In this document: positions 6,529 to 45,830 of the stretch, piece by piece
Layout of the letters: every line of letters begins with the position of its first letter
How positions within the stretch are numbered: position 1 is the stretch's first letter
NCBI RefSeq assembly: GCF_003324485.1
Contig: NZ_QODK01000001.1
Location: 1,054,001 to 1,118,000 of the forward strand
Reading direction: 5' to 3'
From: Cohaesibacter intestini
GTDB lineage: Bacteria > Pseudomonadota > Alphaproteobacteria > Rhizobiales > Cohaesibacteraceae
Length of the DNA: 64,000 bases
The notes under the pieces: model-generated
Databases searched by the model: none
Told to the model about the DNA's origin: nothing
Seen by the model: the letters and a program-made list of their open reading frames with translations, nothing else
Position numbers and translations under genes: made by a program

Positions 6529-7440
6529 ATGTCCATTCTCGTAGACAAGAATACCAAAATCATCGTTCAGGGCCTGACGGGCAAAACCGGTCGGTTCCAC
6601 ACCATTCAGGCGCTGCAATATGCGGGCACCCAGATGGTGGCTGGCGTGCATCCCAAAAAGGGTGGCAACAGCTGGATCAGCGAAGTCGAGGGTGTGCCGG
6701 ATCTGCCGATCTATGCCAGCGTCAAGGAAGCCAAGGACGCAACCGGTGCCAATGCATCGGTGGTCTATGTGCCGCCTGCAGGGGCTGCGAATGCGATTAT
6801 CGAAGCGATTGATGCGGACATTCCGTTTATCATCTGCATCACCGAGGGCATTCCGGTGCTCGACATGGTGCGGGTCAAAAGCCGCCTTGAGAAATCCAAC
6901 TCCCGCCTGCTCGGTCCAAACTGCCCGGGCATTCTGACCCCAGATGAGTGCAAGATCGGCATCATGCCGGGTGCTATCTTCAAGCGTGGGTCTGTGGGCA
7001 TCGTGTCGCGCTCCGGCACGCTGACCTATGAGGCGGTCTTCCAGACCACCAATGCCGGTCTTGGCCAGTCCACCGCTGTGGGTATAGGCGGTGATCCGGT
7101 CAAGGGCACCGAATTTATCGACGTGCTGGACATGTTCCTTGATGACCCCGAAACCGAGTCGATCATCATGATCGGCGAGATTGGCGGGTCTGCCGAGGAA
7201 GAAGCCGCTGCATGGTTGAAAGAACAGGCGGCCAAGGGTCGCAAGAAACCGATGGTCGGTTTCATCGCAGGTCGTACGGCTCCTCCGGGCCGCACGATGG
7301 GTCACGCTGGCGCCGTTATTTCTGGTGGCAAGGGTGGTGCCGAGAGCAAAATCGTAGCGATGGAAGACGCAGGGATCCGCGTTTCTCCGTCTCCTGCGAG
7401 CTTGGGTACCACTTTGGTTGACTTGCTCAACGGCAAGTAA
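6529..7440 (+). CDS. sucD: Succinyl-CoA synthetase alpha subunit
   Basis: 303 aa. It carries the CoA-binding Rossmann domain ([12 protein letters not shown] near residue 13; HPKKGG near 41) and the phosphohistidine loop [15 protein letters not shown] with His259 as the active-site residue that is transiently phosphorylated. GPNCPG at 129 is the usual CoA-ligase motif. It pairs with SucC immediately upstream. A hairpin follows in the spacer to sucA. Confidence 0.98.
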
Positions 7441-7566: not shown

Positions 7567-10557
7567 ATGGTGGCGATGGCACGTCAGGACGCAAATGAAG
7601 CGTTCGCGGGAACCTCCTTCCTTTATGGAGGCAACGCGAATTATATTGAAGATCTCTATGCCCGTTATCAGGAGAACCCCGCTTCTCTGGAACAGGAATG
7701 GCAGATATTCTTCAAGGACTTGGAAGATAACCGAAGCGATGTGATTGCGAATGCCAAGGGTGCATCCTGGCAACGCAAGGACTGGCCGCTTGCGGAATCG
7801 GGCGACATGGTTTCTGCCCTCGGCGATTATGGAATCGACGAGAAGGCGATCGGCGACAAGCTGAAGACCAAGGCGCAGAAGCAGGGCTTCGAGTTGACCG
7901 ATGAGGCGGTGTTGCAGGCAACGCGCGATTCCGTTCATGCGTTGATGATGATCCGTGCCTATCGCATGCGCGGTCACCTGCATGCGGATCTTGATCCATT
8001 GAAGTTGGCCGAGGCGAAGGATCACGAAGAATTGCATCCGTCGTCCTATGGCTTTACCGAAGCGGATTATGATCGCAAGATCTTCATCGACTTCGTGTTG
8101 GGTCTGGAATTCGCGACCATTCCGGAGATGCTTGAAATTCTGCGACGGACCTATTGCTCCACGCTGGGTGTGGAGTTCATGCATATTTCCGATCCGGCTG
8201 AAAAGTCGTGGATTCAGGAACGCATCGAGGGTCCGGACAAGCAGATTGCCTTCACCAAGGAAGGCAAGAAGGCCATTCTCTACAAGCTGGTCGAAGCAGA
8301 AGGCTTCGAGAAGTTTCTCGATCTGAAATATACCGGCACCAAGCGCTTCGGCCTTGATGGTGGTGAGGCGTTGATCCCGGCTCTGGAACAGATCATCAAG
8401 CGTGGTGGTGCGCTCGGTGTTCAGGAAATCGTGTTCGGTATGGCTCACCGCGGTCGCTTGAACGTGCTTAGCCAGGTGATGGGCAAACCCCATCGCGCCA
8501 TTTTCCACGAATTCAAGGGCGGTTCCTATGCGCCTGACGATGTGGAAGGCTCTGGCGATGTGAAATATCATCTGGGTGCGTCATCCGACCGTTCGTTCGA
8601 TGACAACAACGTCCATTTGTCTCTGACGGCCAACCCGTCCCACCTTGAGATCGTCAATCCTGTGGTTCTGGGCAAGGCCCGCGCCAAACAGGATCAGATC
8701 GCGGCCGGTGATGGTCCGTTCATCGAGACGACGGAAGTGGATCGCACGACCGTTCTGCCATTGCTTCTGCATGGCGATGCGGCCTTTGCCGGTCAGGGCG
8801 TCGTGGCGGAATGCCTCGGCCTGTCCGGCCTTAGAGGCCACAAGACCGGTGGTTCGATCCATTTCATCATCAACAACCAGATCGGCTTTACGACCAACCC
8901 GCGTTTCTCGCGGTCTTCGCCTTATCCGTCTGATCTGGCCAAGATGATTGAAGCGCCGATCCTGCATTGTAACGCGGATGATCCGGAATCGGTGGTGTTT
9001 GCGGCCAAGATCGCAACAGAGTTTCGCCAGAAATTCGGCAAGCCTGTCGTCATCGATATGTTCTGCTACCGTCGTTTCGGCCACAATGAGGGCGACGAGC
9101 CTGCCTTCACCCAGCCGATCATGTATAAGAAAATCCGCCAGCATCCGACCAGCCTGCGGCTCTATGCCGACAAGCTAATCGCCGAAGGCGTGATTTCCGA
9201 GGCGGACATCGAAGAAATGCGTGCGGATGTGCGCAAGATGCTGGATGAAGAATTCGAAGCGGGTCAAAGCTTCTCCCCTAACAAGGCTGACTGGTTCGAC
9301 GGCAAGTGGGCCGGTCTGACGACCGCCAGTGCCGAAGATGATCGTCGTTCCGGGGAAACCGGGGTTGATGTTGATGAATTGCGGGCCATTGGTGAAAAAC
9401 TGACCAGCATCCCGTCCGACTTCAATGTCCACCGGACCATCAAGCGCTTCCTCGACAATCGGGCGAAGATGATGGAAACCGGGGAAGGCATCGATTGGGC
9501 AACCGCTGAAGCCCTTGCTTTCGGTTCGCTGGTCAAAGAAGGCCACGCCGTGCGCCTGTCCGGTCAGGATTGTGAACGCGGAACCTTCTCCCAGCGTCAC
9601 ACCGTGCTCTATGACCAGCAGGATGAGAGCCGCTACATTCCGCTCAACCATATTGCGGACGGTCAGCAGCGCTATGAAGTGATCAATTCGATGCTGTCCG
9701 AAGAAGCCGTTCTCGGCTTCGAGTATGGCTATACACTTTCCGAACCGCAGAGCCTGACCATGTGGGAAGGCCAGTTTGGTGACTTTGCCAACGGGGCGCA
9801 GGTTGTGTTTGACCAGTTCCTGAGCTCGGGTGAGCGCAAATGGCTGCGGGCATCCGGTCTAACGCTTTTGTTGCCACATGGCTATGAGGGGCAGGGTCCG
9901 GAGCATAGCTCTGCGCGTCTGGAACGGTATCTGCAGGCCTGCGCCGAGGATAATATTCAGGTTGCCAACTGCACGACCCCGGCCAACTATTTCCACATCC
10001 TGCGTCGTCAGGTGAAACGGACCTTCCGCAAGCCTTTGGTGCTGATGACGCCAAAGAGCCTTCTGCGTCACAAGCGTTGCGTCTCCAACCTTGCGGAGCT
10101 TGGTGCCAACAGCACCTTCCACCGCGTGCTGTGGGATGACGCGGAAATCCGCCCGAATCAGGAAATCAAGCTGGTAACCGACGACAAGATCCGTCGCGTC
10201 ATCATGTGCACGGGCAAGGTCTACTACGATCTGTATGAAGAGCGTGAGAAACGAGGCATCAATGATGTCTATTTGCTGCGCGTCGAACAGCTCTATCCGT
10301 TCCCGGCAAAGGCTCTGATGAAAGAGCTGGCGCGGTTCACGCAGGCCGACATGGTCTGGTGTCAGGAAGAGCCGAAGAATCAGGGCTCCTGGTCCTTCGT
10401 CGAGCCTTATATCGAGTGGGTCCTCAATCAGGTTGAAGCAAATTGCAAACGGCCTCGTTATGTGGGTCGTGCAGCTTCTGCTGCGACGGCAACTGGTCTG
10501 ATGAGCAAGCATCTGGCCCAGCTGCAGGCCTTCCTCGACGACGCCTATGCTGACTGA
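7567..10557 (+). CDS. sucA: 2-oxoglutarate dehydrogenase E1 component
   Basis: 996 aa, thiamine-diphosphate-dependent decarboxylase of the oxoglutarate dehydrogenase complex. The N-terminus SFLYGGNANYIEDLY is the conserved E2/E3-interacting segment. The ThDP-binding region includes GMAHRGRLN and the metal-binding GD-A...NNQIGFTTNP stretch (about residues 400-450). The catalytic-loop sequence YRRFGHNEGDEPAFTQP follows, and the pyrimidine-domain segments FGYEYGYTLSEP-like and LLPHGYEGQGPEHSS are present. GAAGG lies 7 nt before the chosen ATG; a second in-frame ATG is three codons later. It is followed by sucB after a strong hairpin. Confidence 0.98.
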   Translation: MVAMARQDANEAFAGTSFLYGGNANYIEDLYARYQENPASLEQEWQIFFKDLEDNRSDVIANAKGASWQRKDWPLAESGDMVSALGDYGIDEKAIGDKLKTKAQKQGFELTDEAVLQATRDSVHALMMIRAYRMRGHLHADLDPLKLAEAKDHEELHPSSYGFTEADYDRKIFIDFVLGLEFATIPEMLEILRRTYCSTLGVEFMHISDPAEKSWIQERIEGPDKQIAFTKEGKKAILYKLVEAEGFEKFLDLKYTGTKRFGLDGGEALIPALEQIIKRGGALGVQEIVFGMAHRGRLNVLSQVMGKPHRAIFHEFKGGSYAPDDVEGSGDVKYHLGASSDRSFDDNNVHLSLTANPSHLEIVNPVVLGKARAKQDQIAAGDGPFIETTEVDRTTVLPLLLHGDAAFAGQGVVAECLGLSGLRGHKTGGSIHFIINNQIGFTTNPRFSRSSPYPSDLAKMIEAPILHCNADDPESVVFAAKIATEFRQKFGKPVVIDMFCYRRFGHNEGDEPAFTQPIMYKKIRQHPTSLRLYADKLIAEGVISEADIEEMRADVRKMLDEEFEAGQSFSPNKADWFDGKWAGLTTASAEDDRRSGETGVDVDELRAIGEKLTSIPSDFNVHRTIKRFLDNRAKMMETGEGIDWATAEALAFGSLVKEGHAVRLSGQDCERGTFSQRHTVLYDQQDESRYIPLNHIADGQQRYEVINSMLSEEAVLGFEYGYTLSEPQSLTMWEGQFGDFANGAQVVFDQFLSSGERKWLRASGLTLLLPHGYEGQGPEHSSARLERYLQACAEDNIQVANCTTPANYFHILRRQVKRTFRKPLVLMTPKSLLRHKRCVSNLAELGANSTFHRVLWDDAEIRPNQEIKLVTDDKIRRVIMCTGKVYYDLYEEREKRGINDVYLLRVEQLYPFPAKALMKELARFTQADMVWCQEEPKNQGSWSFVEPYIEWVLNQVEANCKRPRYVGRAASAATATGLMSKHLAQLQAFLDDAYAD

Positions 10558-10563
10558 CAAACA

Positions 10564-10609
10564 GGAAGTGATCGTCTTCCCCGCCTGATCGAGGGGAGAC
10601 GATCCTTCC
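10564..10609 (+). other. Long imperfect hairpin in the sucA-sucB spacer
   Basis: The left arm 10564-10582 (GGAAG, GATCGTCT, CCCC blocks) pairs with 10593-10609 (GGGG, AGACGATC, CTTCC) with two single-base bulges, giving about 17 base pairs and a 10-nt loop. It lies directly after the sucA stop, and there is no T-tract after it. Confidence 0.7.
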
Positions 10610-10704
10610 GGAAATAGACGCAGACATCGATGCCAAATGGACTACAGATCCTTGTTTAGGACTCGGCCTTTGGCTCAAAGCGAAATTGGAATGTGAGATA
10701 ACAA

Positions 10705-11931
10705 ATGGCTACGGAAATCAAAGTCCCGACTCTGGGCGAATCTGTGACCGAAGCGACCATCGGTCAGTGGTTCAAGGCAACCGGTGATGCGGTACAGGCA
10801 GACGAGCCGCTGGTGGAACTGGAAACAGACAAAGTGACCATTGAGGTGCCTGCTCCTGTTGCTGGCACCCTTGGTGATATTGTTGCCCCTGAAGGCGAAA
10901 CGGTTGAAGTGGGTGCGCTGCTCGCCATGCTCATTGAAGGTTCTGGTGCGGGGGCCGCTGCCCCGGCCCCTGCCGCCTCTGCACCTGCTGCGGCGCCCGC
11001 AGCTCCGGCTCCTGCGCCAGCTGCGACAGGCACTTCGATGCCGCCGGCGCCATCGGCTGGCAAGATGATGGCCGAACAGAAAATCGATCCGGCTTCGGTT
11101 GCTGGCTCCGGTGTGCGCGGTCAGGTCCTGAAGGGTGATGTGATCAACGCCATCGCCTCTGGTGCCACGGCACCTAGCGGTGCATCTGCTTCAGCGCCTG
11201 CAGCCCGTCCGTCTTCGAAAGCTGAAGATGCCGTGCGTGAAGAACGCGTCCGGATGACCAAGCTGCGCCAGACCATCGCACGTCGCCTGAAAGATGCTCA
11301 GAATACCGCAGCCATGTTGACGACCTTCAACGACATCGACATGTCCGCTGTGATGAATCTGCGCAAGGAATACAAGGATCTGTTCGAGAAGAAACATGGC
11401 GTCCGGCTGGGCTTCATGGGCTTCTTTGCCAAAGCGGTCTGTCAGGCTCTGCAGGAAATTCCGGCAGTCAATGCCGAGATTGATGGTACCGACATCATCT
11501 ACAAGCATTTTGTCCATCTTGGTGTCGCCGTTGGCTCTCCGCGTGGCCTCGTTGTGCCGGTGGTGCGTGATGCGGACCAGATGTCGATTGCCGAAATGGA
11601 AAAGGCCATCGGCGATTATGGTCGTGCTGCCCGTGACGGCAAGCTGACGATCGAGCAAATGCAGGGCGGCACCTTCACCATCTCCAACGGTGGTGTTTAC
11701 GGTTCGATGATGTCCACCCCGATCCTCAATGCGCCGCAGTCCGGTATTTTGGGCATGCACCGCATTGAAGAGCGTCCGGTTGTGCGCAACGGCGAAATCG
11801 TCATCCGTCCGATGATGTATCTGGCTCTGTCCTACGATCACCGCATCGTGGACGGCAAGGAAGCCGTGACCTTCTTGGTGCGCATCAAGGAAGCTCTGGA
11901 AGATCCGCAGCGTCTGGTGTTGGATCTCTAA
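10705..11931 (+). CDS. sucB: Dihydrolipoamide succinyltransferase (E2 of OGDH)
   Basis: 408 aa. The N-terminal lipoyl domain has the swinging-arm lysine K43 in [10 protein letters not shown] very Ala/Pro-rich flexible linker covers about residues 82-115, followed by a peripheral-subunit-binding domain ([26 protein letters not shown]) and a C-terminal acyltransferase domain whose active site is SYDHRIVDG (H379, D383). A single lipoyl domain and the order sucA-sucB-lpd identify the oxoglutarate rather than pyruvate complex. A perfect 11-bp hairpin follows the stop. Confidence 0.98.
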
Positions 11932-15616: not shown

Positions 15617-15648
15617 AAAATCCCCGACACTGGTGACAGCATCGGGGA
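15617..15648 (-). terminator. Terminator of the transaldolase gene
   Basis: On the minus strand TCCCCGA pairs with TCGGGGA (arms at 15642-15648 and 15621-15627), followed by TTTTG. It lies about 70 bp after the tal stop. Confidence 0.7.
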
Positions 15649-36965: not shown

Positions 36966-37055
36966 GGAGAGGTGCCGGAGTGGTCGAACGGGGCGGTCTC
37001 GAAAACCGTTGAGCGCGCAAGTGTTCCGAGGGTTCGAATCCCTCTCTCTCCGCCA
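36966..37055 (+). tRNA. tRNA-Ser (anticodon CGA)
   Basis: A 90-nt class II tRNA with encoded CCA. The acceptor GGAGAGG pairs with TCTCTCC (one wobble), the D arm has the serine-type GCCGGAGTGG, the anticodon loop is CTCGAAA (anticodon CGA), the variable arm is long as serine tRNAs need, and the T arm GAGGG-TTCGAAT-CCCTC ends at discriminator G37052 and CCA 37053-37055. Its 3' end is the left attachment site of an integrated element. Confidence 0.95.
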
Positions 37056-37058
37056 TTC
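37041..37058 (+). repeat. attL core (tRNA-Ser 3' end)
   Basis: CCTCTCTCTCCGCCATTC, identical to 43125-43142. It covers part of the T-arm 3' strand, the acceptor, CCA and three bases beyond, so the tRNA stays intact after integration. Confidence 0.85.
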
Positions 37059-37430
37059 GTTTTAATAACATATTGAAATTGTTTCGTTTTTCAGAGTAAT
37101 GAAAATAACTTCCCCCAATTGTTCCCCCAATGAAACTGCGCTTGGTGCTTTCATTTTGCCCTTATTTACCTTTTGTATTTGGCTGCTCTCTTGCTTCTAG
37201 ATTCTTGAAATGGAATGTGTTGGGCTACTTGCGGCACCTGTCCGAATCTCCGTATTTTGTCAGGTTTCCTGAATTTTATTTGACAGGCGCCGTTTTCAGT
37301 CCTAAATCTTTTATTAACGTTCGACGCCTATCGTTGAGCTTATAGATACACATGGCCCTGACGTGGGGCCGCTATAAAGCGCCCTGGCATATATCATAGA
37401 GCCGGGGCGCACTCATATCTAAGGTTTCTC
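37059..37430 (+). other. Left-end region with arm site and two GC-rich hairpins
   Basis: 372 bp without a gene. It includes the 20-bp arm-like repeat, then GGCCC/GGGCC (37354-37370), then GCGCCCTGGC (37379-37388) pairing with GCCGGGGCGC (37401-37410) with one wobble and an AT-rich 12-nt loop. The second hairpin ends 20 bp before the nuclease start codon. The hairpins stand out in otherwise AT-rich DNA and suggest a structured leader or small RNA. Confidence 0.5.
37110..37129 (+). repeat. Candidate integrase arm site, left
   Basis: TTCCCCCAATTGTTCCCCCA, itself two TTCCCCCA half-units around AATTG. An identical 20-bp copy lies at 42985-43004. It is 51 bp inside attL and in the same orientation as the other copy. 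Confidence 0.65.
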
Positions 37431-38057
37431 ATGTATACCGCTTTATTAATTGATGGCGGGCATTTGCGCGCATGTTTCAAAAAGGCCCGACAGCCTTACA
37501 CTGTTGATGCTATATCTGACTTTGCATCAAGGTGTTTTGTAGAAAATGAAACAGTTTATCGAATTTTCTATTATGATGCGCCCAAGTACGTTGGAGAGAA
37601 GAATACTCCTATCTCAGGAGAACCCCGCACTTTCCGCGATGACGAAACGCTGTTAACCGACATTGCGAAGGTCAAGAATTTTGCGCTTAGAAAAGGTCGG
37701 TTAAAATTTGGCGGCTGGAGATTGAAGCCTAACGTTATACGCCAAATCGGAGAAGGAACTTTTAGCGGGGAATTTCGCGACAGCCATTTTCAACCGAATT
37801 TCAGCCAGAAGGGCGTTGACATGGCGCTCGGCCTCGATGTAGCCGCTATTGCGGAAACCAAGAAGGTCGATCAATTCATGCTGGTAACCGCCGACACTGA
37901 TATGGCTCCAGCTCTCAAACATGGCAGAATTCGAGGAATGAGAGCAGTGGTAATCAAACCAAATTATGAGCGCTGTTTTAACTTGCATGACTCGCTATAC
38001 CAACACGCTGACATTGTTCGAGAAGTGAACGTGAGAAATAACCCTCCTGAAGAATAA
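37431..38057 (+). CDS. NYN-domain (PIN-like, DUF88/LabA-type) protein
   Basis: 208 aa, no signal peptide. MYTALLIDGGHLR is the NYN first strand with acidic D8. Further acidic residues sit where the family keeps them: D130 in QKGVDMALGLD (with D136), and D155/D157 in LVTADTDMAPAL, so the metal-binding site looks intact. The family is predicted or shown to cut RNA in several members. AAGG lies 8 nt before the ATG. It is the outermost cargo gene, next to attL, transcribed opposite to the rest of the element, behind two strong hairpins. Possible roles are RNA cleavage in host defence, competition with other phages, or RNA processing for the element; none is shown by the sequence. Confidence 0.85.
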   Translation: MYTALLIDGGHLRACFKKARQPYTVDAISDFASRCFVENETVYRIFYYDAPKYVGEKNTPISGEPRTFRDDETLLTDIAKVKNFALRKGRLKFGGWRLKPNVIRQIGEGTFSGEFRDSHFQPNFSQKGVDMALGLDVAAIAETKKVDQFMLVTADTDMAPALKHGRIRGMRAVVIKPNYERCFNLHDSLYQHADIVREVNVRNNPPEE

Positions 38058-38112
38058 GTTGAGCGTGCTTGCTTCTCGACTCTTGGGAGGCGGGGGGTGC
38101 GCTTAGCTTAGT

Positions 38113-38976
38113 TCATGGGAAGGCTTTAAAAAGGCCTGTGTCTTTTTCCTCAGAAGCTCTTATTCTGGAAACCCCGTTGTATTTCGAGGCTAGTTTCTCG
38201 CAAGCTGGAAGATAACCTCCTGATGGAGAGAGGACGCCAGAAGAATTAGGCCGAACCTTTCTAAACGATGGTAGTAAGGTTTTAAACTCAGCGCGGCTAA
38301 GATGCCCGGCGTGGCGCAACTGATGGAGCAACACCTCTCCGAGGTAAGACGCTTCCATGATTTCCCATTCAAGCCTCTTTGCTAAATTGTACAAAGCAAT
38401 AGCTTTGTGTATGCTTATTTTTTCGACCCAAATCCTGTTTCGTTCGGGTCCGACGAAATTTTTGACCGCAAGCTTCGCTTGGTCCTCGTTCAACTTATTC
38501 TCTACACAAATGAACAGTGACCTTAAACTGTGGCCCTCGACTTTGGCAATTATCTCGCTCTCGGTCCTTGGCCGCACCCTTTCTTTTTCTTCATCGGCGA
38601 AATTTTCTATCTTTTTTGAAGATTCCAAAAGCTTACTAAGACGCTCTTTGCAACTTGTTGACCGGCTATAGTCGTGGTGAATTGAGCTGCACGCATTGAA
38701 AGCGTTAGCAATAAGTGAACTATTGTACTTACCAAAATTTGCGTAAATTGTTGAAATTACGATCAATTCTCGTTTGTGAATTTTCTTCAATTCATCTTTG
38801 CAATACTCAATGTCCCTTTCATTAACGCACGCCGAATAAGTCCTCGCGACTTGACGCTCCCTTTGATCAATTGCGGCTTGCATAATTCGATCAATCGAAA
38901 TCTCTTCTGCCATTGAGGGAGAGATTGACAAGAATAGCCAAGTCAAGAAAATTGAAATTTGACCTAGTTTCAGCAT
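38113..38976 (-). CDS. Secreted hypothetical protein carried by the element
   Basis: 287 aa, not recognised. An N-terminal signal peptide is clear (ISIFLTWLFLSISPSMA, cleavage before EEISID). The mature protein is charged and mostly helical in appearance, with seven or more cysteines (SACVNER, EYCKDEL, NACSSIHH, TSCKERL, FICVEN, PACEKLA), several spaced to form disulfides. Codon use is AT-rich, unlike chromosomal neighbours. It is convergent with the NYN gene (55 bp between stops). An envelope role such as surface modification, immunity or superinfection exclusion would fit a mobile element, but nothing in the sequence shows it. Confidence 0.7.
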   Translation of the reverse strand: MLKLGQISIFLTWLFLSISPSMAEEISIDRIMQAAIDQRERQVARTYSACVNERDIEYCKDELKKIHKRELIVISTIYANFGKYNSSLIANAFNACSSIHHDYSRSTSCKERLSKLLESSKKIENFADEEKERVRPRTESEIIAKVEGHSLRSLFICVENKLNEDQAKLAVKNFVGPERNRIWVEKISIHKAIALYNLAKRLEWEIMEASYLGEVLLHQLRHAGHLSRAEFKTLLPSFRKVRPNSSGVLSPSGGYLPACEKLASKYNGVSRIRASEEKDTGLFKAFP

Positions 38977-39866
38977 CCCCTTTACCCCACTGCATCATTC
39001 ACCATCGGCTTAACAAAGCCATGTATCCCTACCCTAAACCCTCGGTAGAAAACTGTTCGGAATTTGACGCATGATTGCATCGGCCCCGGATTTCTTCAAC
39101 TCGTCTTTTGAATTGTGGGAGTGAAAATTTAAGTCCCCTTGCCGATCCATGCATTTAACCCTCTAGAGATTGGAATACCCCCTAGGGCTGCTTTGGAGGA
39201 GAACAAAGCCCTTGCTTGACGTCAGCCCTGCGCGAGCATGGTGCCGAAACTTGATTTATCTTTGATATTTTTTCAAAGCGATTGGCAATAACAGGTTTTC
39301 AGAGGCCCTAAAAAAGAGGGAAGGCCGTAAACGAAGTGAGGTTTTGTTAGGTTCCCCACCGTTCCTATTTCGGCCTATTTTACGCTCTGGCAGGACGTGG
39401 CTTTTCCGCTTCATTATGGTGTCTACTTTGCCCTATTTCAGAAAGCCCGATAAACCCCGTTAGAAATCGGATTTTAAAGCGGCCAAATATGCGGCCAAGA
39501 AAGCACCCTGAAAGCAACACTCCCCAACCCCCGCATACTTGAGGGGGAGTACCCCCTAGCCTCCTTAAAGGGGGGATGGCGCTGGCGCTTGGTTGTCTCT
39601 TTGATTGTGGTTTGGCTGGCTTTCATCGGGCCGCTCAAAAGGGCCAAATATGCCGAAAAGACCTCTTTCAAAAAATGCACCCTTTTGGACGTGGTTTTGG
39701 GCTGGAAACACCCTTGAAACTGGAGTGCTTGGCAAGGTCGGTGGCAGGGATATCTATATATAGGTCCGACGAGGCATGTTTTCAGGTCTTTGAGGGATTG
39801 GCCGCAAAGTGGCTGGTTTCTGCGACCAATCGTGTCTTGATAGCCTGTTTTTTAGCATTTCCAAAA
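38977..39866. other. Non-coding, repeat-rich stretch, probable origin region
   Basis: About 890 bp with no credible gene. It contains short repeats: TACCCCCTAG at 39178-39187 and 39550-39559, GGCCAAATATGC at 39481-39492 and 39642-39653, a hairpin at 39186-39214 (AGGGC, TTTG with CAAA, GCCCT), and GGGGG-AGTA-CCCCC near 39543-39557. Together with the adjoining iterons this looks like a replication origin or control region. Confidence 0.45.
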
Positions 39867-39932
39867 TGTCGAAATATCGACCGTTGGATGTCGAAAAATC
39901 GACCGTTGAGTGTCGAAATATCGACCGTTGGA
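39867..39932 (+). repeat. Three tandem 22-bp iterons
   Basis: Copies start at 39867, 39889 and 39911 with exactly 22-bp spacing; copies 1 and 3 are identical and copy 2 differs at three positions. Each begins TGTCGAAATATCGACCGTTG, and GTCGA-N4-TCGAC inside it is a dyad. There are no spacers. A 22-bp phase (two helical turns) right beside a tandem winged-helix protein is the pattern of iteron-type replication origins. Confidence 0.85.
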
Positions 39933-39940
39933 AACTAAAT

Positions 39941-40645
39941 TCAGGCCGCTATTTCTGGCTTCCATTCCTTGAAGGAATTTGCTGCCGCCTTTTCCCCTTC
40001 TTGGGGCATATCGGTAAAGCTAAAAGCCTTCTGCCCGTGCAGGGAACCAGCCCGCCGCAAGAAGCCCTTTTCGACTAGTTCCGCAACGACGCTTTTTGCC
40101 TTTCTGTTCCGGCAACCAAGTAGTGCCTCAACCATGCGAGAATCGACAGGGAACCGATTGATAGCCCGATATGGGTGCTTGGCTTTCATGGTGATAAAGA
40201 GCTTGCGGCCCTCATTTGACAAGTGTTGCCATGCTGGTATCGAGCGCCATTGTCGGAGCAAAGGGAAATGCTTCTGGCGTTCATGTGGTGGCGGTATGAG
40301 CTGATAGATGCTTACCCTATGGGCGACCGGGCCTTTCAAGGTGCCATCTTGCCGCTTATCGAGCCATCCATAGCGAACAAGCTCTTTAAGTGCGGCTATA
40401 GCAACATCCCGGCTGGCTCGCGTTTTCTCCATTGCTTCGGCAATGCTTATCGGGATTGGGTCATAGTCCCCATTTCTGCAATCGAGAAATAGCTCTGTAA
40501 TGAGTGCGGCTGCCGCTGGTGAAAGCCTCACCCATATGACCATATCAGCCCAATCTTGGAAAAACTGCCAATGGCTTGGCAGGTGCCTTCGCCGCGCCTC
40601 CCTTACTCCGTGGGAGCGGCTTCCTATTTCCTTTCTTCTGTCCAT
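39941..40645 (-). CDS. Tandem winged-helix protein, candidate replication initiator
   Basis: 234 aa. Two winged-helix-like segments are visible: about residues 62-115 (PISIAEAMEKTRASRDVAIAALKELVRYGWLDKR) and about 170-215 (FPVDSRMVEALLGCRNRKAKSVVAELVEKGFLRRAG). Two such domains in one protein and three iterons 8 bp beyond its stop codon resemble iteron-plasmid Rep proteins, which use tandem winged helices. I see no clear sequence match to a named Rep family, so it could instead be a transcriptional regulator. Its start overlaps the upstream stop (TAATG). Confidence 0.65.
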   Translation of the reverse strand: MDRRKEIGSRSHGVREARRRHLPSHWQFFQDWADMVIWVRLSPAAAALITELFLDCRNGDYDPIPISIAEAMEKTRASRDVAIAALKELVRYGWLDKRQDGTLKGPVAHRVSIYQLIPPPHERQKHFPLLRQWRSIPAWQHLSNEGRKLFITMKAKHPYRAINRFPVDSRMVEALLGCRNRKAKSVVAELVEKGFLRRAGSLHGQKAFSFTDMPQEGEKAAANSFKEWKPEIAA

Positions 40646-40956
40646 TATGCCACCTGTCCTTTCGGGCCAAATGGTCTTGTGACGTCGAGTTGGCTTTTCA
40701 GGACGTATCGCCCATGGGTGCCGCTATAGGGTCCGCTGTGTGGTTCATAGATGGTTTCAATCGTTATGCCTGCATCCCGAAGGTTTTTGACATAAGCGCT
40801 CCACCTTGGGGCGGGATTATCTATCGGGGTACATCCCTTTTTGCCAGCTTCAATAAGTGCAGAAAGTGCCCATGCGTCACGGCCAGTGAATGAAAGGTTT
40901 TGTTCAGTGCCACCGACAGGCAAGCAAACTGAAATCGTCATCGTCTGCTTTCTCAT
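40645..40956 (-). CDS. Small winged-helix-like protein
   Basis: 103 aa. The segment from LSFTGRDAWALSALIEAGKKG to NLRDAGITIETIYEPHSG looks like the short winged-helix domain found in alphaproteobacterial prophages and islands, where a Thr-Pro-containing turn is followed by a helix and LRxAG. It is probably a DNA-binding accessory protein. Both ends overlap neighbours by TAATG, so its level should be tied to them. Confidence 0.6.
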   Translation of the reverse strand: MRKQTMTISVCLPVGGTEQNLSFTGRDAWALSALIEAGKKGCTPIDNPAPRWSAYVKNLRDAGITIETIYEPHSGPYSGTHGRYVLKSQLDVTRPFGPKGQVA

Positions 40957-41156
40957 TATGCCGCCCTCGGTGTATTTGGGCAGTTTAGGGCGATATGGGC
41001 TTCAATCACCGATGCAGGCAAACCGGTTTTTGCTTGTATCCTAAGCCCGAACCGAGTGCGCGAGGCGGTGATTTGCTGGACTGAGTGCGCCCAATCGAAC
41101 AATGTTGGCTGTTTGTTCTTATTGTCATTTGTGGTATTGGATGTTACGTTTTGCAT
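40956..41156 (-). CDS. Small hypothetical protein in the coupled operon
   Basis: 66 aa. Polar N-terminus (Asn/Thr/Lys-rich) followed by a helical stretch (LFDWAHSVQQITASRTRFGLRIQAKTGLPASVIEAHIALNCPN-type). Not recognised. TAATG overlap with the next gene supports that it is translated. Confidence 0.5.
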   Translation of the reverse strand: MQNVTSNTTNDNKNKQPTLFDWAHSVQQITASRTRFGLRIQAKTGLPASVIEAHIALNCPNTPRAA

Positions 41157-41268
41157 GTTTGAAATCCATTTTTTGGATTGGTGAAATCCTCAAATGCAAG
41201 CAGACCGTCGGCAAACAAGTTGCTTGCATTGTCGGATTATTATTAGAGGGGTTAGGACCAATCAGGTC

Positions 41269-41454
41269 TTAGCCCCTTTTTGACATTTGTTCGCTCTGCC
41301 AGTCGTCAATCTCGCTTTCTGACCAAGCAACCGCCCTTAATCCGATTTTGAATGGTTTAGGGAATGTGCCTTGTTTTGCTGCTGAGTAGATTGTGCTGCG
41401 AGCAAGGCCGGTGCGTTCCTGCACCTGTGGAAGTCTCAAAACGTGGTCTGCCAT
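41269..41454 (-). CDS. AlpA-family DNA-binding regulator
   Basis: 61 aa with the AlpA/MerR-like helix-turn-helix: LRLPQVQERTGLARSTIYSAAKQGTFPKPFKIGLRAVAWSESEIDDW contains the typical RSTIY recognition helix and the FPKPxKxGxRAxxW wing. In P4-like satellites and PICI-type elements AlpA proteins switch on excision and early genes. It is upstream of the coupled operon and downstream of the integrase, all on the minus strand. Confidence 0.88.
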   Translation of the reverse strand: MADHVLRLPQVQERTGLARSTIYSAAKQGTFPKPFKIGLRAVAWSESEIDDWQSEQMSKRG

Positions 41455-41708
41455 TTTAGCTCCTATAAAGCGTTACTAGACGGTAAGAATTTTAGCTGCC
41501 AGCAGTGCATAGAACCAGAATGAAACGGACAGATTCCACAAGATACGATTCCTGTGCCCTGTGTTCAGGTGGATATTTGCAATTAATTCAATTTTTTCAG
41601 ATATTTGGCTTGTGGATTTATGTTTATAACATTGTGTGTATCGTGTGATTAACCTGTGCATAACAGGGGTTGTCCGTAGGCGTTTGGCGTGATTGTTTAG
41701 GTTGCTGA

Positions 41709-42980
41709 TCAAGGGCGGTGCTCTGACTTTGAAGTAAAGGGCACTATATTTTCTGAATTGGATTCGCCCCAAATAAAACCCGCCCATTCTTCCAGAATAG
41801 CTCGCCGCCTTTGCAGCATGTCTGACCGTCTATAGGCGCGTTCAACGTCGCTGCCGACTTTGTGCGCAAGGCTGATTTCGGCAAGGTCGCGTTCAATCCC
41901 TCTTTCCGCTGCCCAATCCCTGAAACTGGACCGTAAGCCATGGGGCACGGCTGGCCGCTTGCTGCGCGGGTCTAACCATCCTTGATTGCCTGCTTTGATT
42001 TCGGCCTCATTCATCCGACGCATAACAGCACTGATTGCCATGTCTGACAGTGCGCCACCTCTTACAGCGAAAAAGACATAGGGCGAATCTTCCATGCGGG
42101 GCAGGGCTTCCAATAGCTCCTTTGCGGCCACAGGGAGCGGCACGCGATGCTCTTTGCCCATCTTCATACGCTCTTTGGGAATGGTCCATATCGGCCCCTT
42201 GGTGGCTTTCAGGTCGACTTCATCCCAAACCATGCCTCTAACTTCACCGGAGCGACAAGCGGTCAAGGTAAGGAACATGAGCGCTTTTGCGGCTATGCCT
42301 TCGCGTTCCTGCAATGCGTTCCACCACTGGGGTAAATCTGGCAAGGCAAGCGCGGGTTGATTGTCGCCCTTCTTTAGCTTGTTTGGCTTTGGCAGGATTT
42401 CAGACAAGTTGCCTTTCCATCGAGCGGGATTGTCGCCTTCTCGATATCCGGCAACGGTGGCCCATGACAAAACGGCTTCAATGCGCCCCCGTAATCTGGT
42501 CGCGGTTTCGGTCTTTGCCTGCCAGATTGGTTCTAGCGTTCGAAGGATATCGGGCAAGGCAATCGCATTGACGGGCATGTTGCCCAAAACAGGCATGGCG
42601 TAGGTTTCGAGGGTGCTTTGCCATTGCTTGATATGTTTGGGGTTCGAAAATTCTTTGGTCTTGTTTTTAAGAAAGCGCTCGGTGGCTTTGCGAAAAGTCA
42701 GGATAGATTTTTTTGTCTGCTTTTCGCGCAATGGGTTTTCGCCCTGTCTGGCCTTGCGCTTGTTATCGGTTGCCATTTCGCGGGCTTCACCCAATGACAC
42801 AAGAGGGAATGAGCCAAGGCCAATTTCACGTCGCTTGCCCTCAATGGTGACACGCTGGACCCAAAACTTGCCGCCACCGACTTTGACCCAAAGAAAAAGG
42901 CCAATGCCGCCGCCATCGTGGTATTTGCCGGGTTGCTTGGTGTTGCGAACAAAGACCGCTGTCAATTTTCCTTGCGCCAT
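41709..42980 (-). CDS. int: P4-type tyrosine integrase
   Basis: 423 aa. An N-terminal DUF4102-type arm-binding domain (residues 1-90, KYHDGGGIGLFLWV, REIGLGSFPLVSLGEAREMA), a core-binding domain to about 200, and a catalytic domain with R243 (TACRSGEVRG), H347 and R350 (HGLRSSFRDW), H373 (LAHKVG) and nucleophile Y383 (RAYRRSD). The set is complete, so it should be active. Integrases of this family typically use tRNA 3' ends, which fits the tRNA-Ser site. It sits 145 bp from attR and starts 5 bp from a 20-bp repeat also found at the other end. Confidence 0.95.
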   Translation of the reverse strand: MAQGKLTAVFVRNTKQPGKYHDGGGIGLFLWVKVGGGKFWVQRVTIEGKRREIGLGSFPLVSLGEAREMATDNKRKARQGENPLREKQTKKSILTFRKATERFLKNKTKEFSNPKHIKQWQSTLETYAMPVLGNMPVNAIALPDILRTLEPIWQAKTETATRLRGRIEAVLSWATVAGYREGDNPARWKGNLSEILPKPNKLKKGDNQPALALPDLPQWWNALQEREGIAAKALMFLTLTACRSGEVRGMVWDEVDLKATKGPIWTIPKERMKMGKEHRVPLPVAAKELLEALPRMEDSPYVFFAVRGGALSDMAISAVMRRMNEAEIKAGNQGWLDPRSKRPAVPHGLRSSFRDWAAERGIERDLAEISLAHKVGSDVERAYRRSDMLQRRRAILEEWAGFIWGESNSENIVPFTSKSEHRP

Positions 42981-42984
42981 TCAG

Positions 42985-43004
42985 TTCCCCCAATTGTTCC
43001 CCCA
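42985..43004 (+). repeat. Candidate integrase arm site, right, at the integrase start
   Basis: Same 20-bp sequence as 37110-37129, placed 5 bp upstream of the integrase start codon. It could serve both as arm site for recombination and as an operator that limits integrase expression. Confidence 0.65.
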
Positions 43005-43124
43005 GAAAAACGAGTCTGCAGCAGTATATCACTGGACACTATTGGATGTAACTGGATAATTATATTGCTGTAAAACAATGGCTTAGGGATTTTTCTTGGA
43101 TGGCCTTGGATATCATGATGGCGG

Positions 43125-43142
43125 CCTCTCTCTCCGCCATTC
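43125..43142 (+). repeat. attR core
   Basis: Second copy of the 18-bp repeat, 145 bp beyond the integrase start codon. It marks the chromosomal end of the element; upstream of it the bases no longer match the tRNA. Confidence 0.85.
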
Positions 43143-43634
43143 AGTTTCATTTCCTTCGGATATTATGTGATCGCTGGTGTTGTCAGGATGCTGCCGTTCG
43201 GTCTCGGCTGATCGGGACAAGACCGCCATGGCAAAGGGCTTGGGACCGGCTCGACCTGCAGGGAAGTGGCTGGCCTTTTCGGCTGGGGCTCTTTGTCGGC
43301 TGGGATTCATCGTCGGTAAAATGTCCCAATGTGTTTTCCCAGAAGCCTCTCAGGCAACTGCGTCGCAGCGTCTGTGCAAGACAATCAGGATGCTCATAAT
43401 TCAGAAATGTAGCGAATGATGGTTTTGATTGCAGAAGAATGGTCGCGAGCTTCAGTGATTTGATGCTCTTATTATGCTCGATCTGATGCTCTTTGTTGCG
43501 ATTACAGTCTTTGCGCAGCAACCATGACCTATATTTTGGGGATGGTATATTTACCTATATTCCTTTACGTTCGTTAACCAATTATTGGCCGCCTTATTGT
43601 GGCATTTTTTATAGATTTTTTGGAAGGATCACCC
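43143..43634 (+). other. Flank between attR and the RTX gene
   Basis: About 490 bp with no credible gene; short frames lack ribosome sites. It becomes AT-rich from about 43540 and probably holds the promoter of the RTX gene. Confidence 0.45.
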
Positions 43635-45830
43635 ATGTCAGTTCAGCTCTGGGGCGGACCAATAAATGTTAGCTCCATCACCGATGCATATCAAAATAGT
43701 GCGGATATCGCCGTGCTTGCCGATGGTCGCTTTGTCGTCGTCTGGGTAGACAGCTCCACCAGTGACACTCGTATTCTTCAGCGTGTTTTCAATGCGGACG
43801 GTTCGCCAGCAACGGCAGAATTTGTCGCCATCGAAAATCCATCTGTCGATCTCGTCAATCCTGTGGTCACGGTGCTGCCTGCAGGCGGATGGGCTGTTAC
43901 GGCCGCCGACGTGGAAGGTGGGCAAGGGAGTGTCCTATTCTTTGATGGCGATGGCTCCGTTGCAGAATCAATTTTGGTCTATTTCGCTGGCACGGCAGTG
44001 AATACCCATTTGGATGGATTTTTGGTTGGCGCAAATTACTGGATCATGGAATCCGACGCTGCCGCTGACAACCAGATCGACGTTTTCATCAATAGCCTGG
44101 ATGGCAATACCCACGCCTCCAATACCATTTTCACCGCCCAGACAGACACCTCTGGCACACAGGTCGATCCAGCAGGTGCCCAGATCAATAATGGGAATGT
44201 GGTGCTTGCATGGCGGGAGAGTGATACCATCGAATTTACTATTGTCGATGATACTGGCGTGGCTGTGAGTGGCAGTGATACAGTGGTGACTGTACCGGGT
44301 CGTGATGCCGCTTTGAGCAGCTACGGCAAACCTGACATACTGGCGCTTGAAAATGGTGGATTTCTGATCACTTGGGCGTCGGACTCTTCAGACTTTCCGG
44401 GTGCGGGTTTTGACGTATGGGGCCGCATCTATGGCCCGGACGGTAGCGCCTTCAGCGCCGAGCCTTTTCTCGTCAATAGCAATGTGTCCGAGAACCAGTT
44501 CTCTGCCAAAGCCGTGCCTCTCAAATCCGGTGGGTTCGCCGTATTTTTTAACACCAACACCCTTTTGGGCACAGGGATCAAAGGCCAGCTTTTCGACAGT
44601 CTCGGTAGCAAGCTTGGTCAAGAGTTTCAGGTCTCCAGCAACGGTCCACTCGACGATATTTCCATTGATGAGGTGAGTGCCGCTATGCTGCAGGATGGCC
44701 GTATTGCTGTGACCTACACAGTCATCGATTCGGACGCCGGTGGCTCAAATCTGCGCCTGCAGATCGTCGACCCGCGAGATGGCAATATTTCCGGCGGTGT
44801 TGATGGCGACAGCCTTTATGGCAATCGTGGCAACGACGACATGTTCGGCGGGGATGGTGCTGATGTGCTCAATGGCATGGAAGGGCAGGACCTGCTTTTT
44901 GGTGGTCACGGAGACGACATTCTGATCGGGGGCGACGGCAATGATCGTCTGGTTGGCGATGCCGGTGCTGATCATATGGTCGGCGGCGTGGGGAATGACG
45001 TCTATTATGTCGATGATGCAGGGGACACCATTGCCGAAGATGCCGACAGTGGCAATGACCTCGTTTTCAGCTTTGTTTCCTTTGCCTTGCGGGATCATTC
45101 CGCCAATCTGGAGCATCTCAAGCTCTATGGCAGCGAAAATATCAATGGGACAGGCAACGCACTGGCCAACACTATCACCGGCAACTCCGGCAACAATGTT
45201 CTCAATGGCGGCGGAGGCAATGACACACTCATCGGTGGCCTTGGCAACGACATCTTCCTCGACAATATTGGCGCGGAGCGGATGGTTGGGGGCGGTGGCA
45301 ATGACGTCTATTATGTAGATGATGCAGGAGATAGCATCGAGGAAGTCGGCAACAACGGTACCGACCACGTATTCAGCTACATCTCCTTTGCCTTGCGGGA
45401 TCATTCTGCCCATCTGGAAAATCTCAACTTGCTGGGCACCGGCAATAGCAGTGGTGTTGGCAACGGTCTGGCCAACTCCATTGTTGGCAATTCGGGCAAC
45501 AACAACCTGAATGGCGGTGGGGGAAGCGACACGCTCAGTGGTGGCTTGGGGAACGATTTCTTCGCCGACAATGCCGGCAATGATCGCTTCACTGGCGGTG
45601 GTGGAGCGGATACTTTTTTCTTCTTCGGTGTGAATGAGAGTGACATCATCACCGACTTCGAAGACGGTATCGACACAATCCGGATTGCCATTGGCGTCGG
45701 CTCCTTTGACAATGTCATCGTCACCGATCAGGGGGCTGATACCCTCCTCTCTTTCGCAACCAACACCGTTCTGCTGCAGAACTTCACCGACCACACCCTC
45801 ATCGAAGCGTCGGATTTCGAGTTTGTTTGA
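43635..45830 (+). CDS. RTX-type calcium-binding repeat protein
   Basis: About 731 aa, no N-terminal signal peptide, as expected for type I secretion. The first ~390 residues contain repeated beta-rich units of the pattern LADGRFVVVWVD...RVFNADGS, LENGGFLITWAS...RIYGPDGS and LKSGGFAVFFN...QLFDSLGS. The rest has RTX nonapeptides (GGxGxDxLxG) in three clusters with DVYYVDDAGD segments, and an ending (ADTFFFFGVNESDIITDFEDGIDTI) typical of the C-terminal secretion region. The ATG at 43635 has GGAAGGA 6 nt before it; the frame is open 12 codons earlier. No protease or lipase motif was seen, so an adhesin or surface-layer role is more likely than an enzyme. No type I secretion genes are nearby. Confidence 0.85.
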   Translation: MSVQLWGGPINVSSITDAYQNSADIAVLADGRFVVVWVDSSTSDTRILQRVFNADGSPATAEFVAIENPSVDLVNPVVTVLPAGGWAVTAADVEGGQGSVLFFDGDGSVAESILVYFAGTAVNTHLDGFLVGANYWIMESDAAADNQIDVFINSLDGNTHASNTIFTAQTDTSGTQVDPAGAQINNGNVVLAWRESDTIEFTIVDDTGVAVSGSDTVVTVPGRDAALSSYGKPDILALENGGFLITWASDSSDFPGAGFDVWGRIYGPDGSAFSAEPFLVNSNVSENQFSAKAVPLKSGGFAVFFNTNTLLGTGIKGQLFDSLGSKLGQEFQVSSNGPLDDISIDEVSAAMLQDGRIAVTYTVIDSDAGGSNLRLQIVDPRDGNISGGVDGDSLYGNRGNDDMFGGDGADVLNGMEGQDLLFGGHGDDILIGGDGNDRLVGDAGADHMVGGVGNDVYYVDDAGDTIAEDADSGNDLVFSFVSFALRDHSANLEHLKLYGSENINGTGNALANTITGNSGNNVLNGGGGNDTLIGGLGNDIFLDNIGAERMVGGGGNDVYYVDDAGDSIEEVGNNGTDHVFSYISFALRDHSAHLENLNLLGTGNSSGVGNGLANSIVGNSGNNNLNGGGGSDTLSGGLGNDFFADNAGNDRFTGGGGADTFFFFGVNESDIITDFEDGIDTIRIAIGVGSFDNVIVTDQGADTLLSFATNTVLLQNFTDHTLIEASDFEFV
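45000..45600 (+). repeat. 306-bp tandem duplication inside the RTX gene
   Basis: The unit starting GACGTCTATTATGT at 44998 recurs at 45304, 306 bp (102 codons) later, and both include the DVYYVDDAGD, FALRDHSA and LANxIxGNSGNN segments followed by an RTX block. This shows growth of the protein by internal duplication. Confidence 0.7.

Follow-up and report, generated by a model that had tools for sequence, protein, structure and literature searches.

The 64-kb stretch of Cohaesibacter intestini DNA analysed here (the window) carries, next to a tRNA-Ser(CGA) gene, a 6.1-kb segment that is almost certainly integrative in nature and appears to be an intact minimal integrative element. The element holds seven main genes, all of them open, and likely contains a replication module of its own, in which the gene of a tandem winged-helix (WH) protein, termed Rep, is followed by three iterons. 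A relative in Pseudovibrio sp. Ad37, bounded by repeats of a different tRNA, keeps Rep, the iterons and a conserved non-coding stretch in the same arrangement. A minimal integrative element that has its own replicon and depends on a helper for transfer is favoured with moderate confidence; the case for calling it a phage satellite is evenly balanced. In the following, G000 denotes the genome that contains the window, and other G and L numbers denote the genomes and loci compared.

Borders and integration site

The element is bracketed by two exact copies of an 18-bp core, CCTCTCTCTCCGCCATTC, at 37041-37058 and 43125-43142, the first of which lies at the 3' end of tRNA-Ser(CGA). The sole further match in the 64-kb window at up to three mismatches carries three. 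Matches of this quality are expected by chance 0.07 times in the window, and three matches were obtained in 0/100 shuffles. A direct repeat of a tRNA 3' end and an adjacent tyrosine integrase, the features by which site-specific tRNA integration is recognised, are thus both present. The integrase has three domains in the order Arm-DNA-bind_3, Phage_int_M and Phage_integrase, which we take to mark a P4-type enzyme, and the neighbouring AlpA-family protein matches PF05930 at 2e-20. The paired repeat TTCCCCCAATTGTTCCCCCA recurs close to either end of the element (37110 and 42985), and these pairs are probably the arm sites of the integrase. Both the att cores and the arm repeats are intact. Int would recombine the att core with the tRNA-Ser 3' end, and AlpA, judged by its family, may act as the excision factor or as a switch.

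The GC content is 0.48 in the element compared with 0.556 in the window. It is 0.534 in int and 0.53 in rep, 0.453 and 0.431 in the two cargo genes, and 0.578 and 0.546 in the left and right flanks. Three genes coding for 66, 103 and 234 aa form a coupled operon with ATAATG at both junctions, giving 1-nt TAA/ATG overlaps. The seven main open reading frames (ORFs) were scanned against four family libraries, with smaller ORFs outside the scan, and none of the seven was recognised as a structural or transfer gene. A first-pass annotation of this DNA had described an exact tRNA-Ser duplication around 6.1 kb, a complete integrase with AlpA, a coupled three-gene operon, iterons, two AT-richer cargo genes and a lack of structural or transfer genes, and all of these descriptions hold, one of the cargo proteins being NYN nuclease-like (PF01936). 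The assignment of the middle operon gene to HTH_91 and the paired repeats at the two ends are additions to that description.

Comparisons within the genus and the family gave no sign of core genes kept elsewhere. A search with the single Rep sequence matched 1/20 family genomes, namely G000. The tRNA-Ser(CGA) gene is kept in 12/12 same-genus genomes examined (of 17), and none of the element proteins was found downstream of it in these 12 genomes within 9-19 kb (52 kb in G015). The proposal of an integrated element thus stands on both counts. In G015, whose left flank is the most similar to that of the window, the tRNA gene is followed by different genes and by a partial second core (L080:8933), and the right flank of the window is 42 kb away. 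With a right flank that lacks conservation, no exact empty site can be drawn.

A putative replicon shared with a Pseudovibrio element

When 84,980 species, each represented by a single genome, were scanned with exact peptide patterns only, two Rep loci were obtained, L008 in Pseudovibrio sp. Ad37 (57%, residues 3-231) and L009 (28%, half-length). L008 is a complete-looking element at a tRNA-Arg(CCT) gene (7074-7150), with an exact 15-bp repeat of this tRNA (7136-7150 and 15634-15648) and paired arm-like repeats near both ends. Its integrase gene (7305) and a weak HTH_17 xis-like gene (8811; E 0.0096, under the cut-off) are accompanied by two further genes before Rep (9962-10708), one of which matches the DnaD-like helicase loader phrog_2514 at 6.9e-5, and then by cargo that includes a Rha/antirepressor-type gene.

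The iterons of the window (3 x 22 bp at 39867-39932) reach a best three-copy tandem identity of 0.89, compared with at most 0.61 in eight mononucleotide shuffles. The array of L008 is slightly above its shuffles (0.70 vs. 0.63, eight shuffles). In both elements the iterons start ~10 bp past the Rep stop and have a period of 22. ACGGT is in register in 6/6 iterons, preceded by A or G, and CGAC follows it after 8-9 bp in 3/3 copies of the window and 2/3 copies of L008. The last ACGGT is separated from CGTCGGAYCTATATATA by 113 bp in the window and by 114 bp in L008. Alignment of the 260 bases that follow the Rep stop in the two elements gave a local score of 36.5, whereas 500 dinucleotide-shuffle pairs gave a mean of 11.4 and a maximum of 20. 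Such non-coding conservation beside a 57%-identical protein points to a function, which is as far as two sequences can lead. Tandem iterons directly downstream of rep, the mark of an iteron replicon, are therefore found in two elements, and the layout of rep and origin is likely to be as in the island SGI1. The rep/ori-like module first proposed from the window is strengthened by this att-bounded relative. In the excised element, Rep would bind the three iterons just past its own stop codon and would fire replication from the adjoining stretch, whose position and conservation are observed. HTH_91 (PF22324), encoded by the gene before rep, may serve as an operon partner or regulator in this branch.

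Rep looks like a tandem winged-helix protein. Its two halves align with each other with a score of 49, reached by 2/1000 shuffles, and those of the L008 Rep with a score of 62, reached by 0/1000. Single-WH genes of other islands match one or the other half. The best families of Rep are the DnaD-like helicase loader phrog_186 (6.7e-7) and a replication initiation family (4.9e-4), and its weak matches among PHROGs comprise phrog_186, phrog_270 and phrog_345; no Rep family of Pfam or NCBIfam was over its cut-off. WH genes match the phage replication families phrog_186 and O-like, and the single-WH relatives L028 and L031 also match phrog_186 (5.5e-8 and 3.5e-6). A structure model computed from a 17-row alignment, replacing a first model with a mean pLDDT of 45, has a mean pLDDT of 66, in which the first WH is confident (blocks of 79-96, residues 41-120) and the second half is mostly poor. 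Comparison of the model with the PDB gave generic winged helices, mostly MarR-type, including 4pt7 ('initiator') and 5kbj ('Rep-DNA complex'), none of them at E 0.001 or better. A search of the PDB by sequence yielded a single match, to a ribosomal protein at E 0.17, which is no better than chance. The replication-initiator reading is thus based on position and iterons more than on sequence.

A profile search with Rep gave matches in 16/397 genomes of the order and 10/385 genomes of the class. Full-length matches are confined to G000 and G357, whose contig number and position equal those of the Pseudovibrio contig. The remaining matches, including those in the same-genus genomes G013, G014 and G016, cover about half of Rep or less. 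L009 and the other half-length matches were rejected as Rep proper and kept as single-WH relatives only. The conserved 17-mer of the putative origin is exact in 2/397 genomes of the order (G000 and G357) and was found in no viral contig. It was rejected as a genome-wide marker, as 3/5 matches with up to one mismatch in the 397 genomes lie in unrelated contexts and the reversed control gave 10.

The wider HTH_91 class

The family PF22324 was found in 14/347 genomes of the order and in 0/14 control genomes. Among 14 PF22324 loci, the window included, a co-directional integrase lies upstream in 12, a WH gene downstream in 8, and AlpA/xis ~500-620 bp upstream in 10 by tblastn (L029 is another by blastp); some query proteins were drawn from these loci, so that part of the matches are self-matches. 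L132 has no integrase, AlpA/xis or WH match, and L133 has an opposite-strand integrase match only. In an att scan of 21 loci, a tRNA was found in nine, eight of which have a repeat of the tRNA 3' part of at least 13 bp. The repeats measure 18 bp in the window, 15 in L008, 40 in L125, 36 in L126, 17 in L128, 14 in L035 and 13 in L036 and L080, those of 13-14 bp being weak; L029 has none. Five of the 12 PF22324 loci scanned (L132 and L133 left out) are bounded by tRNA repeats, with spans of 6.1 (window), 6.3, 5.0, 4.9 and 5.3 kb.

These other int-xis-HTH_91-WH elements of Alphaproteobacteria resemble the window element in gene order and direction, and the four bounded ones in size (4.9-6.3 kb). 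They differ in their last gene, which codes for a single WH, and the four tested have no iteron array above shuffle level; iterons were thus rejected as a feature of the whole class. HTH_91 was likewise rejected as a fixed part of the iteron branch and is not needed for a tandem-WH/iteron replicon, because it was not found among the genes scanned in the Pseudovibrio element. The comparisons support placing the element in a wider int-xis-(HTH_91)-WH class, as a branch with a tandem WH and iterons. The earlier idea of an undescribed alphaproteobacterial family is refined accordingly to such a branch, and no account of the element or of an alphaproteobacterial class of its plan was found among the matches listed from the open-licence PMC literature.

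HTH_91 also occurs in seven plasmid records, and an integrase lies upstream in four of the five tested (L144-L148). The pSymB of Sinorhizobium meliloti strain Ak57 (L148) is annotated as integrase, hypothetical, AlpA, (HTH_91, unannotated) and hypothetical, and HNH, RecQ and DUF3427 genes, a possible defence set, lie beyond this island. In Microvirga, HTH_91 adjoins a toprim-domain gene (M. terrae) or is one gene away from it (M. lotononidis), followed by an AAA ATPase. This neighbourhood fits a replication role. In the one Microvirga circular plasmid tested, no such upstream integrase was found. L144 and L149 are Microvirga circular plasmids of ~40 kb, typed as non-mobilizable, with repB and repC annotated in L144, and may be phage-plasmids. 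HTH_91 was found in no viral contig or phage, although phrog_25676 matches it, and the integrase in no viral contig.

A further-reaching interpretation is that int-xis-(HTH_91)-WH is a widespread, unnamed class of minimal (~5-8.5 kb) alphaproteobacterial satellites, analogous to yet independent of the Vibrio PICMIs, in which WH proteins take the place of the usual primase as the replication module, and that in the branch of the window and Pseudovibrio a duplication of the WH gene gave rise to an initiator that binds iterons and has an origin of its own downstream. This is tentative, and the lack of HTH_91 in the Pseudovibrio element makes it less likely. Should the class prove to consist of satellites, minimal satellites would be known outside Vibrionaceae too, with a different replication module. 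The HTH_91 gene between xis and the WH gene provides a marker for finding more such elements, and the window element offers a compact, testable case in Alphaproteobacteria, with seven genes and a replicon whose proposal draws on two copies, found in two families and at two different tRNAs.

Transfer and alternative explanations

Transfer by phage seems likelier than transfer by conjugation, because the host has no type IV secretion system (T4SS) coupling protein but has two phage-portal clusters; transfer itself is unproven. The coupling protein family T4SS-DNA_transf (PF02534) had no match in the G000 genome, which is 99.37% complete, and a search confined to the portal family Phage_portal gave two matches there. 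Movement between cells would most likely take place inside a helper phage particle, as in PICMIs, and is the weakest step of the proposed cycle. The first portal match lies beside a Terminase_6 gene at G000:C3 ~627801-642495 (L138), with long tail-like genes after it and ordinary chromosome around; this cluster presumably resembles a gene transfer agent (GTA). The second, at G000:C4 ~113664-123410 (L140, L141), is accompanied by integrase, HNH, TerL, AAA_25 and Prim-Pol genes with no obvious tail genes, and looks to us like a capsid-forming PICI-type satellite.

Several points weigh against a helper-dependent element with its own replicon. Neither an excised form nor replication or transfer of the element was observed. 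The branch with rep and iterons comprises two elements only, and HTH_91 was not found among the L008 genes scanned. The matches of Rep to replication families are weak, its predicted structure is partly confident and resembles generic winged helices, and no match to Rep was found in phages, plasmids or viral contigs (the last searched by exact peptide patterns). No DnaA box lies by the iterons; the sole exact match in the stretch scanned, to the DnaA box consensus that we assumed, is at 41655-41663. Terminase, capsid and relaxase were not recognised in the seven ORFs, and a packaging stretch common to the element and the two resident clusters was considered and rejected, as their longest common stretch of 14 nt is within chance (shuffled maxima 13-17). 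No packaging gene, shared packaging stretch or excised form was found that would decide between the earlier alternatives of a satellite and an integrative plasmid. However, missing packaging signals do not exclude a satellite, because PICMI115 carries no packaging genes itself, yet its DNA is packaged as a concatemer, and neither cos nor pac sites could be recognised by the authors in the genome of its helper, according to excerpts of the report (PMC10803314); the other published elements are likewise cited from excerpts.

An integrative mobilizable element, SGI1-like or with an oriT only, would excise, replicate from its own oriV and be moved by a conjugative helper through an oriT that escaped recognition, for instance in the large non-coding stretch 38977-39866. 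SGI1, which moves with IncC plasmids, provides a precedent, as it combines int, xis and rep with iterons that directly follow rep (PMC7433901). Elements with an oriT only are also known and are easily overlooked (PMC11389934, PMC5704250). However, no relaxase was recognised in the seven ORFs, to which the relaxase search was confined, and the host genome has no PF02534 match, although a plasmid may have been lost or left unassembled. This explanation is unlikely.

The segment could also be a decayed prophage remnant or immobile island, in which int and alpA are leftovers, the repeats serve as operators, and HTH_91 and the WH protein act as ordinary regulators. In the PDB, the best matches to the WH domains are MarR-like regulators, the iteron core is, by eye, a near-palindrome (TCGA-N4-TCGA) as is often found in operators, and an integrase relative in the same genome (L002) is frameshifted. 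However, decay is at odds with the intact arm repeats and att cores and with seven open genes. Rep and the iterons keep their place in the att-bounded relative at a different tRNA, and operators would not usually occur as three tandem copies past the 3' end of a gene and be followed by a conserved tail. A remnant is judged improbable. An integrative plasmid that functions without a dedicated helper and spreads by transformation or through GTAs would agree with the own replicon and with the terminase/portal cluster at G000:C3 ~627.8-642.5 kb if that is a GTA, but is very improbable given that the RcGTA head holds about 4 kb, below the 6.1 kb of the element, and that the seven ORFs include no recognisable partition or toxin-antitoxin gene.

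Comparison with known systems

SGI1 is much larger than the 6.1-kb element. The two are alike in layout, as SGI1 has a proven oriV with iterons immediately downstream of rep inside an int/xis island. They differ in that IncC plasmids mobilise SGI1, whose oriV also contains a DnaA box and AT-rich blocks (PMC7433901), whereas the Rep of the element is over no Pfam or NCBIfam Rep cut-off. The size is near-identical to that of PICMI115 (6,110 bp, six genes), and the excerpted description of PICMIs agrees further in co-located int and AlpA, a replication gene, cargo, a direct repeat and no capsid-remodelling gene (PMC10803314). However, the primase gene prim is mandatory in the PICMI model (PMC10803314), whereas DUF3987 and DUF5906 of Pfam are unmatched in the seven ORFs. 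Unlike PICMIs, the element lies at tRNA-Ser and not downstream of fis, and has a tandem-WH Rep with downstream iterons. P4-like satellites share the P4-type integrase, AlpA and accessory cargo, but none of the sid, psu, delta, epsilon and alpha genes, as named in the excerpted text (PMC8628076), is reported for the seven ORFs, and the element is smaller than the P4 average of 10 kb (PMC10803314). The element would thus work like a PICMI-sized satellite, yet belongs to neither the PICMIs nor the P4 family.

Small islands that carry int and AlpA but lack transfer genes are a common and mostly unexplained finding in the excerpted literature (PMC12595487, PMC11389934). The I55-type islands resemble the element in their tRNA/tmRNA site, direct repeats, tyrosine integrase, AlpA and lack of a recognised transfer gene, and I55 itself is moved by a jumbo phage (PMC12595487). 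They are larger than the element, three of them sharing ~18 kb of similar sequence, and no iteron replicon is seen in the excerpts describing them (PMC12595487).

Features of the element, cargo and neighbouring genes

Table 1. Features of the element and its target gene in the window
Feature	Position	Strand	Remarks
tRNA-Ser(CGA), integration target	36966..37055	+	ARAGORN
attL, 18-bp core	37041..37058	+	tRNA-Ser 3' end + 3 bp
Left arm-type repeat pair	37110..37129	.	TTCCCCCA twice, 12-bp spacing
Cargo, NYN-domain nuclease-like protein, 208 aa	37431..38057	+	PF01936 33.2 bits (cut-off 24.2); phrog_5783 2.4e-31
Cargo, orphan, 287 aa	38113..38976	-	signal-peptide-like N-terminus (by eye)
Putative origin region	39680..39940	-	homologous to same place in Pseudovibrio Ad37
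Conserved 17-mer	39755..39771	-	CGTCGGACCTATATATA; Pseudovibrio CGTCGGATCTATATATA, one base differs
Three 22-bp iterons	39867..39932	-	CAACGGT-N8-CGACA, just past rep stop
rep, tandem WH protein, putative replication initiator, 234 aa	39941..40645	-	
HTH_91 winged-helix protein, 103 aa	40645..40956	-	PF22324 1.8e-35; phrog_25676 5.5e-23
Orphan, first gene of coupled operon, 66 aa	40956..41156	-	
AlpA-family regulator/excisionase	41269..41454	-	PF05930 2e-20; phrog_66 and phrog_2790 excisionase
DnaA-box-like sequence	41655..41663	-	TTATGCACA; between alpA and int, away from iterons
Tyrosine integrase, 423 aa	41709..42980	-	adjoins attR
Right arm-type repeat pair	42985..43004	.	immediately upstream of int start codon
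attR, second 18-bp core	43125..43142	+	

Relatives of the NYN protein occur in 15 phage records with 26-32% identity. In coliphage ev099 the relative is flanked by a LexA-type repressor and N, a position occupied by accessory genes expressed in lysogens, and in Moraxella phage Mcat4 it comes after the terminase. The PADLOC matches of the cargo are weak (NYN 2e-4, HEC-09 0.0096). As cargo, the NYN gene would probably guard the host against competing phages, although an anti-phage action is a guess. The 287-aa orphan has no significant family match in the four libraries and none in plasmids or phages.

Within the genus, relatives of the integrase (~68%), of AlpA (~60%) and of a single WH protein are found in G014 and G016, and G013 has AlpA and the WH protein with no integrase match. 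A relative in the own genome (the overlapping loci L002 and L006, G000:C6 ~219.5-221.6 kb) has the order int-AlpA-WH, with the integrase broken by frameshifts. At the same tRNA-Ser, G015 carries ~7.6 kb of other DNA (L080:1316-8945), whose first gene codes for 518 aa and which ends in the partial second core. By eye, the neighbours of L031 (G014) include an 803-aa protein with a P-loop-like stretch, and those of L033 (G013) type I restriction-like genes. The large ORF right after attR (window 43599-45830) has, by eye, glycine/aspartate-rich RTX-like repeats, and repeats resembling them occur elsewhere in the own genome.

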